From positions 1,474,275 to 1,538,274 of the forward strand of contig NZ_OX241534.1 of the NCBI RefSeq assembly GCF_945836005.1: DNA of 64,000 nucleotides, written 5' to 3'. Below, in pieces: positions 52,697-54,733 of the stretch (the first letter of the stretch is position 1; each line of letters opens with the position of its first letter). A program made the translations under genes and the position numbers. The DNA is from Candidatus Nitrosacidococcus sp. I8. Its GTDB lineage: Bacteria; Pseudomonadota; Gammaproteobacteria; Nitrosococcales; Nitrosococcaceae. The notes beneath the pieces were generated by a model. That model was given only the letters and a program-made list of their open reading frames with translations, had not been told where the DNA came from and made no database searches.

Positions 52697-54733
52697 ATGA
52701 TCAATAATCATCATTTTTTTAATCTATACCACCATAACTTTGTTCGTATTGCCGTAGCTATTCCTTGCGTAAAAATAGCTGATCCTCAATTTAACAGTCA
52801 AGAAATTCTAAATTTATTAGAGCAAGGGATTAAGGATAAAAGTATTTTAATAGCATTTCCGGAGTTAAGCCTCTCTGGTTATAGCTGTGGCGATCTTTTT
52901 TTCCAACAAGCGTTATTAACGGAATGTGAGCAGGCTTTTTATTGGCTTCTAAAACAATCTCAAAATCTCCCTATTATTGGGGTGATTGGAATGCCTTTAC
53001 TAATAGAGGGATCACTTTTTAACTGTGCAGCAGCTTTTTATCAAGGGAAAATTTTAGGAGTAGTACCTAAAGTTAGCTTAGCAAATCATGAAAGACGGCA
53101 ATTTACTTCTGTTTCTCGTATTTTTAAAAAATATGTTTCTATTGCAAATCAAGATATTATTCCTGTTAATCCCTATTTACTCTTTAAAAGTAAGGAACAG
53201 CCATTATTTAGTTTTCATATCACGGTAGGTGAAGATTTTTCCCCTATTCCCTCTTCTTCTTATGGTGCTTTAGCAGAGGCTCACGTCTTAATTAACTTAA
53301 CTGCATCTAATGCTGGAGTTGATAAAATATATAATCGTTCCCAGCTAATCAGCAGCCAATCCCAACGGTGTTGTGCTGCTTATTTTTATGCCAATGGAGG
53401 ATTTGGAGAATCTACTACAGATTTTGCATGGGATGGGCAAGGGATAATTTATGAAAATGGTACTTGCCTTGCTCAAACCCAGCCTTTCTCCTATCAATCT
53501 CAATTGATCAGCGGTGACATTGACTTAGATAGTTTGCAGCAAAGCCAGATTCGATCTCACAATTTTTCTGAAGCTTGTTATCAGCATCAAGAACTTCTTA
53601 CAAATTTTGAAACAATTTCTTATTCAATTTTTCTTCCTTTACAAGAGAGGTTACTACTGAAGCGAATTTATTCGCGCTTTCCTTATCTACCAAAGAACCT
53701 AGAAAAACAAGATAAACGCTACCAAGAAATCTACGCAATGCAGGTACAGGGATTAGTTAAACGACTACAAACTACTGGAATAACTAAAATAGTGTTAGGG
53801 GTTTCTGGAGGATTAGATTCTACCTTAGCCTTAATTGTATGTATGGGAGCTATGGACATTTTAAAGTTATCTCGTAGTCATATCCTCGCTTATATCATGA
53901 CTGGATTTGGTACCAGCGAAAATGCACTCATTCGGGCAAGGCAGCTTACTACTGCAAGTGGGTGCCAAGTCCATGAAATGGATATTTCCCCTAGTGCGAT
54001 GCAAATGTTGAAAGATATTGGTCATCCCTATGCAGAAGGTAAGCTGGTTTATGATTTAACCTTTGAAAATGTACAAGCCGGTGAACGAGCAAGTCATTTA
54101 TTTCGGATCGCTAATTTCCATCAAGCCCTTGTGATTGGTACTGGAGATTTAAGTGAAATGGCTTTAGGTTGGTGTACTTATGGGGTAGGTGATCATATGG
54201 CACACTACCATGTGAATAGTAGTCTCCCTAAAACCTTAATTCAGTCTATGATTAGTTGGATAGAGAAAAGCCAAAAATTTGGGGAAGAAATGAGTGTTGC
54301 CCTAAAAACTATCCTAGCTAGTGAAATCAGCCCAGAGCTTATTCCCATTGAAGAAAATCATCCTATCCAGCGATCTGAAGATACAGTAGGTCCTTATCCG
54401 CTTCAGGATTTTCATCTGTATTACACTTTGGGTTTTGGCTATTCGCCTAGCAAAGTAGCTTTTCTTGCGTGGTCCGCATGGCATGACTTTAGACAAGGTA
54501 ATTGGCCAGATCATATTGAAGATCACCGCTGCCAATATACTTTGAAAGAAATTAAACACTGGCTAGGTGTGTTTTTGAAACGCTTCTTTCATTCAAGCCA
54601 ATTTAAACGAAGTGCGATGGTAGATGGTGTAAGTGTAGGTTACAGCTTATCACCTAGAGTGGGTTATCAAGCACCGAGTGATAGTGAAATTACCACTTGG
54701 CTAAACCAGCTAGATAAAATCCCAGAGGAATAA
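52697..54733 (+). CDS. nadE: NAD synthetase, two-domain form with altered glutaminase site
   Basis: Makes NAD from deamido-NAD. I take the ATG at 52697; a GTG at 52685 adds 4 residues, and numbers here use the GTG. The N-terminal domain is the CN-hydrolase (nitrilase) glutaminase: Glu60 in AFPELSL and Lys129 in VVPKVSL are present. The nucleophile Cys expected in the ICED motif is Gly182 in TVGEDFSP. The loop after Lys129 is also about 3-4 residues shorter than in family members. The synthetase domain is intact, with the P-loop GVSGGLDSTLAL. Length 678-682 fits the M. tuberculosis-type enzyme, whose triad is Glu52/Lys121/Cys176. Confidence 0.93.
   Translation: MINNHHFFNLYHHNFVRIAVAIPCVKIADPQFNSQEILNLLEQGIKDKSILIAFPELSLSGYSCGDLFFQQALLTECEQAFYWLLKQSQNLPIIGVIGMPLLIEGSLFNCAAAFYQGKILGVVPKVSLANHERRQFTSVSRIFKKYVSIANQDIIPVNPYLLFKSKEQPLFSFHITVGEDFSPIPSSSYGALAEAHVLINLTASNAGVDKIYNRSQLISSQSQRCCAAYFYANGGFGESTTDFAWDGQGIIYENGTCLAQTQPFSYQSQLISGDIDLDSLQQSQIRSHNFSEACYQHQELLTNFETISYSIFLPLQERLLLKRIYSRFPYLPKNLEKQDKRYQEIYAMQVQGLVKRLQTTGITKIVLGVSGGLDSTLALIVCMGAMDILKLSRSHILAYIMTGFGTSENALIRARQLTTASGCQVHEMDISPSAMQMLKDIGHPYAEGKLVYDLTFENVQAGERASHLFRIANFHQALVIGTGDLSEMALGWCTYGVGDHMAHYHVNSSLPKTLIQSMISWIEKSQKFGEEMSVALKTILASEISPELIPIEENHPIQRSEDTVGPYPLQDFHLYYTLGFGYSPSKVAFLAWSAWHDFRQGNWPDHIEDHRCQYTLKEIKHWLGVFLKRFFHSSQFKRSAMVDGVSVGYSLSPRVGYQAPSDSEITTWLNQLDKIPEE

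Follow-up and report, generated by a model that had tools for sequence, protein, structure and literature searches.

The nadE gene of Candidatus Nitrosacidococcus sp. I8 encodes an NAD synthetase fused to a glutaminase domain, in which the catalytic cysteine is replaced. This locus raises the question whether such an enzyme can still draw on glutamine, what its amide donor would otherwise be, and under which conditions the loss could be tolerated. The window analysed here is a 64,000-nucleotide stretch of contig NZ_OX241534.1 with a G+C content of 37.4 per cent; 'Ca. Nitrosacidococcus tergens' is described with 1.8 Mbp and 37 per cent G+C (PMC8115276).

The nadE reading frame (52697-54733, plus strand) is open over 678 codons. 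Its start was placed at ATG 52697, which is common to relatives and gives a 678-AA product; the original prediction had counted from GTG 52685 (682 AA), and its residues 60, 129 and 182 are Glu56, Lys125 and Gly178 in our numbering. The product matched NF002730 (NCBIfam) over nearly its full length with 868.7 bits vs. a cut-off of 473, and PF02540 with 76.7 bits vs. 21, while the match to PF00795 (30.2 bits vs. 23.2) covered residues 20-141 only. The best solved structures were those of M. tuberculosis (Mtb) NadE, and the AF2 model (pLDDT 84; Z 48.7 to Mtb NadE) kept the fold of the whole glutaminase domain. The gene, its domains and the triad positions are as follows:

52697..54733, plus strand: nadE coding sequence, fused glutaminase-synthetase NAD synthetase of 678 AA (NF002730 equivalog)
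52697..53596, plus strand: nitrilase-type glutaminase domain, residues about 1-300, predicted to be catalytically dead (PF00795, fold)
52862..52864, plus strand: Glu56, acid/base (Mtb Glu52), kept (alignment)
53069..53071, plus strand: Lys125 (Mtb Lys121), kept (alignment)
53228..53230, plus strand: Gly178 (GGT) for the catalytic Cys (Mtb Cys176) (alignment, codon)
53699..54730, plus strand: NAD synthetase domain, residues 335-678, SGGLDS loop 370-375 intact (PF02540, invariant columns)

The Cys-Glu-Lys triad of NadE1-Gln is incomplete in this protein: Glu56 and Lys125 are kept, and Gly178 aligns on Cys176 of M. tuberculosis NadE, within the ICED motif. All three residues are as the original prediction had them, and the alignment to M. 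tuberculosis NadE and relatives that it called for gave Cys at the nucleophile column in 128 of 130 sequences (this one included) and Gly in two. The alignment had 131 rows (this protein, five from its family, a class sample of five, 71 named genome records and a phylum sample of 49), and all but L102, which ends before the site, span this column. The 71 named loci were retrieved by peptide patterns that excluded the nucleophile site; of 53 other genomes with a match 50 were used (30 loci and 20 fetched), with G648, G590 and G630 left out, and L038, a duplicate of the window, was dropped. In G630 (C1:3814961-3816989) a nadE of the same family lies in two overlapping pieces in different frames, from a frameshift or an assembly error.

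The second Gly-bearing sequence, L006, comes from G001, a different genus within the family, which we take, from its kinship and size, to be an acid-tolerant sister genus; genus g3 of this family is called Nitrosococcus-like on the same assumption, and all four of its genomes examined keep the Cys. The Gly codon is GGT in both this genome (G000) and L006, and TGT stands in a Nitrosococcus-like relative, in agreement with the single base change (TGT to GGT) that had been proposed. Chance or error was rejected as the source of Gly178, because Cys is found in 128/130 sequences and the same Gly recurs in a second, independent genome from a different genus.

Another cysteine of the domain might have taken over as nucleophile. 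The glutaminase domain contains eight Cys, and some stand at unusual places: none of 122 relatives has Cys at the positions of Cys24 and Cys226, and five have it at that of Cys294. The nearest ones to Gly178 in sequence are, however, Cys110 and Cys225, the other five Cys positions hold Cys in 16 to 102 of the 122 relatives, and the sister protein, which also lacks the nucleophile, carries Ser, Leu and Arg at the positions of Cys24, Cys226 and Cys294. With no candidate near in sequence and no unusual Cys common to the sister, we rejected a replacement nucleophile as highly improbable.

The second defining feature of the glutamine-dependent enzyme is the YRE loop (Mtb 127-132), which contacts glutamine and is the bottleneck that separates the glutamine tunnel from the ammonia tunnel (PMC6946656). 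In Mtb NadE it signals to the synthetase via Arg128 and Arg576, and its Glu129 bonds Lys644 at the tunnel, Lys644 being constriction 2A (PMC6946656). The corresponding positions in the Nitrosacidococcus protein are:

53084..53092, plus strand: deletion site of YREF (Mtb 127-130), between Asn130 and His131 (alignment; YRE loop per PMC6946656)
54431..54433, plus strand: Gly579 for Mtb Arg576 (helix alpha17, YRE-loop partner) (alignment; role per PMC6946656)
54602..54682, plus strand: changed C-terminal segment, residues 636-662, with the Lys of the PKV motif (Mtb Lys644) lost (alignment)

The predicted shortening of the loop after the triad Lys was thus confirmed, with four residues after Lys125 gone (YREF, Mtb 127-130); within what is left of the loop Tyr131 is changed to His and the second Glu (Glu132) is kept, and one further residue is absent after the ICED motif. 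The synthetase partner of the loop is also missing (Arg576 to Gly), and Mtb Lys644 has no Lys counterpart. In L006 there is no deletion and the counterparts of Arg576 and Lys644 are kept, with SWESYE vs. YREFYE of the Nitrosococcus-like proteins (YREF to SWES) and Gly for the Trp directly after the ICED motif. Across 122 full-length relatives the loop opens with Tyr in 118, and its fourth position is occupied by Phe in 106. Arg128 varies among Cys-bearing relatives; six of the same class (L124, L126, L128, L129, L150 and L156) read YGEF, YWEF or YNEF, and, given these six Cys-bearing genomes without it, the Arg of the loop is, as judged by alignment, dispensable.

Glutamine-using NadE is marked by an extended C-terminal loop that lies where the two domains meet (PMC3376133). 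The C-terminal segment is present in the Nitrosacidococcus protein, with six near-invariant sites changed at residues 643-658, which by their position probably belong to that loop.

Because the protein lacks two of the features that define the glutamine-dependent enzyme, it is, by its predicted properties, a glutaminase-dead variant of NadE1-Gln. It resembles M. tuberculosis NadE (NadE1-Gln, NF002730/PRK02628) in two-domain fold, length, the Glu and Lys of the triad and the synthetase active site, but lacks the nucleophile Cys, YRE residues 127-130, Arg576 and Lys644. Structures of C176A Mtb NadE (PDB 3sdb, 3seq, 3sez, 3szg) were among the top matches to our model; in them the same residue is replaced with the fold unaffected, but that variant was designed, and in the natural protein the coupling loop and tunnel residues are missing as well. 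No natural glutaminase-dead NadE is described in the titles or abstracts of the open-access literature searched.

At the motif level the synthetase domain is intact, as had been expected: its invariant columns are kept, including S370, G371, G372, L373, D374 and S375 of the SGGLDS loop. Within the 1.85 Mb genome the PF02540 profile rose above its cut-off three times, at nadE, GuaA (GMP synthase) and MnmA, and nadE is the only NAD synthetase found by this search in the genome and in the window. Free ammonia is a substrate of both the M. tuberculosis (tbNadE) and the human (hsNadE) enzymes, and hsNadE has a Km of 42 mM for NH3 (PMC6946656). Because the nucleophile is lost, the synthetase motifs are intact and there is a single NadE, free ammonia is the likely substrate, which supports the direct ammonia use suggested at the outset. 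The single-domain NadE-NH3 would share this substrate but has no glutaminase domain, whereas here the domain is kept and predicted to be dead.

A separate glutaminase subunit (type C/R) could in principle serve the dead fused enzyme in trans, with glutamine still as nitrogen source, and two-subunit NAD synthetases do exist in other bacteria (PMC3376133). Yet the coupling parts of this protein (YRE loop, C-terminal segment) are altered, the dead domain would presumably still fill the docking site of a trans subunit, and no nitrilase was found beside nadE: the three downstream neighbours scanned are MlaC, BioD and BioC, and of three upstream frames two matched no Pfam family and the third none of the nitrilase type. 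We consider such supply in trans very unlikely. Part of the neighbourhood recurs in the family, with MlaC- and BioD-like genes beside nadE in the one Nitrosococcus-like genome scanned and a BioD-like gene in the sister genus. In the sister, bioD and nadE are separated by the gene of an acyltransferase-SGNH protein (PF01757, PF19040; L167, 1557-3539), which takes the place held by the MlaC-like gene in this genome and in one Nitrosococcus-like genome. With MlaC- or BioD-type neighbours recurring in the family, and the protein grouping with its family on the tree, horizontal acquisition of nadE was rejected. By architecture the protein is a NadE1-Gln, probably vertically inherited, with the octameric type assigned by kinship only; NadE type 1 forms an octameric assembly (PMC7196632).

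Our preferred reading is that the protein is very probably an ammonia-using NAD synthetase which retains its dead glutaminase domain as a scaffold. Without the Cys nucleophile no glutamyl-thioester would form, and without the YRE loop glutamine would not be held and no signal would pass between the two active sites. The synthetase half would activate NaAD and take free NH3 from the cytoplasm. The dead domain would have been kept, the fused oligomeric enzyme being built around it, and the old glutamine pocket may be the ammonia entry.

To compare the divergence of the two parts we counted changes at near-invariant sites, defined as alignment columns with an identity of at least 97 per cent among 118 of the 131 rows (>640 AA) in a set that left out the own row, L006 and the four Nitrosococcus-like rows. 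The Nitrosacidococcus protein is changed at 12/52 such sites in the glutaminase vs. 9/90 in the synthetase part, a marginal difference (Fisher p = 0.049), and six of the nine synthetase-side changes fall at residues 643-658. L006 has two changes in each part (2/52 and 2/90), and each of six Cys-bearing neighbours has 0 or 1. Three-taxon estimates gave the own branch a length of 0.488 (0.383-0.613, bootstrap) for the glutaminase domain vs. 0.251 (0.193-0.326) for residues 335-635, and the L006 branch 0.179 vs. 0.183 for the synthetase domain. The ratio of ratios was 1.99 (1.10-3.61) when residues 636-662 were left out and 1.66 (0.96-3.07) when they were counted. The glutaminase domain of this lineage has evolved about twice as fast as its synthetase domain, which is not so in the sister.

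The same ratio was 0.84 (0.44-1.58) for GuaA, with no speed-up on the glutaminase side, 2.02 (0.87-4.65) for PyrG (L184) and 1.74 (0.71-4.94) for GlmS (L196). The last two glutaminase domains lean faster here than in the sister, with intervals that include 1. Because both keep their Cys and lean the same way, speed alone is no proof of loss. The fast branch of this lineage would also fit a nadE that is decaying to a pseudogene, and the Gly might be a plain sequencing error; against this stand the 678 open codons, the single NadE of the genome, the kept synthetase invariants and the same Gly in two independent genomes. With the frame open and the two genomes in agreement we rejected both possibilities as extremely improbable.

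The two Gly-bearing proteins are sisters on the synthetase-domain tree (support 97/96) and on the glutaminase-domain tree (95/97, where the composition of the own row is unusual), and with weaker support on the tree of PurF (86/91). The simplest history would be one ancestral loss followed by deeper decay in this lineage. The common ancestor of the two sister ammonia-oxidising genera is the most likely starting point of the loss, and decay would then have gone further here, with YREF, Arg576 and Lys644 lost. Because the sister has the Gly without the loop deletion, the deletion is probably a later event of this lineage and the Cys change older. The original prediction had taken the shortened loop as a sign of older decay: the change does appear to be old and not a single recent mutation, but the sister genus reverses the proposed order of loop before Cys. 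One point against an early shared loss is that L006 shows no general relaxation, where more decay would be expected. Gly may instead have arisen twice, once per genus; the lack of overall acceleration in the sister's glutaminase domain would agree with this, and TGT to GGT is one step. The codon is nonetheless GGT in both, the sister grouping is well supported in both domains, and the YRE loop is altered in both genera, which makes a double origin rather unlikely.

A second glutamine enzyme of this genome shows a similar change. The only PurF found (L197, G000:C1 about 938486-938893, outside the window) matched the purF equivalog with 506.6 bits vs. a cut-off of 350, and begins with MGGVIG vs. 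MCGIIG in seven relatives (G001, four of g3 and two others), i.e., Cys2 is replaced by Gly. The open frame upstream of purF contains no Cys, and an alternative start cannot restore the nucleophile. Arg73, which presumably binds glutamine, is changed to His, and five more changes fall at residues 75-83, a stretch we take to be the glutamine loop. At sites identical in the seven others, 15/144 are changed in the glutaminase vs. 6/155 in the transferase part (p = 0.040); the same count gave 4/133 and 4/153 for G001, 7/136 and 5/154 for G006 (p = 0.56), and none for G003 and G005. As a whole the PurF glutaminase domain shows no clear acceleration (ratio of ratios 1.29, 0.52-3.27).

E. coli PurF lacking its Cys no longer uses glutamine but can still work with ammonia (PMC3261824). 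A crenarchaeal PurF' without the N-terminal Cys shows the same loss of the nucleophile, but accompanies a Cys-bearing PurF as a second copy (PMC3261824), whereas the one described here is the only PurF found. Six class I glutaminase domains, PurL, GlmS and an AsnB-like protein of this genome keep their Cys, and a loss of all glutaminases of the cell was rejected on this ground.

The glutaminase domain of glutamate synthase (PF00310) had no match in G000 or G001; it was matched once each in the Nitrosococcus-like G003 and G005 and is present in 12/14 control genomes. In the alignment the NadE Gly is confined to this pair of sister genera without a PF00310 match. Both genomes encode an NADP-specific glutamate dehydrogenase (750.5 bits in G000 and 749.9 in G001 vs. 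an NCBIfam cut-off of 536), a route characterised as low-affinity in a review of ammonia-oxidising archaea (PMC10432482).

As for the cause of the loss, the original prediction held that an ammonia-rich or ammonia-oxidising host would tolerate it. This genome does carry an AMO-family gene (PF02461), but so do four Nitrosococcus-like genomes and one Nitrosomonas MAG, all of which keep the Cys; ammonia oxidation alone was rejected as the cause, and an ammonia-oxidising host does not suffice as stated. Two MAGs named as ammonia oxidisers (L040 and L103) also keep the Cys; they had no PF02461 match and hence were not counted. Acid life alone was rejected likewise: Ferrovum, Ferrovaceae and Methylacidiphilum are acidophiles, and the Cys is kept in 11/11 Ferrovum or Ferrovaceae rows and in the one Methylacidiphilum. 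We prefer high ammonium together with assimilation based on glutamate dehydrogenase, and infer that the loss was tolerated in cells that are surrounded by ammonium at tens of mM and assimilate it by way of this enzyme. A species resembling this genome was grown in 70 mM NH4Cl (PMC13170337); glutamine and glutamate are unmentioned in the main text of three published Nitrosacidococcus accounts.

Taken together, glutamine may have been abandoned stepwise as an amide donor in this cell. We hold the chances to be even that the lineage drops it enzyme by enzyme, with both genera having lost glutamate synthase and the function of the NadE glutaminase, the PurF glutaminase dead afterwards in this genus only, and ammonia taken directly from an ammonium-rich cytoplasm, the missing YRE loop turning the NadE glutamine pocket into an open ammonia port. 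This would be a bacterial counterpart of the transition from CPS III to CPS I, in several enzymes of one cell. Vertebrate CPS I is a different enzyme with a different glutaminase fold in an animal mitochondrion. It is alike in that the fused glutaminase domain is kept after loss of its Cys and that free ammonia is used (PMC7657897).

Two enzymes with glutaminase residues lost and the dead domain kept would show when glutamine channelling becomes dispensable in a free-living bacterium, and they hint at high ammonium inside acid-tolerant ammonia oxidisers. Channelling is usually viewed as the way in which amidotransferases keep ammonia inside the enzyme. The two sister genera would represent steps of the loss, with the Cys and loop residues changed in one, and the loop deletion and tunnel residues added in the other. 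A caution for annotation also follows: NadE and PurF both score far above their NCBIfam cut-offs and are named as if they were intact.
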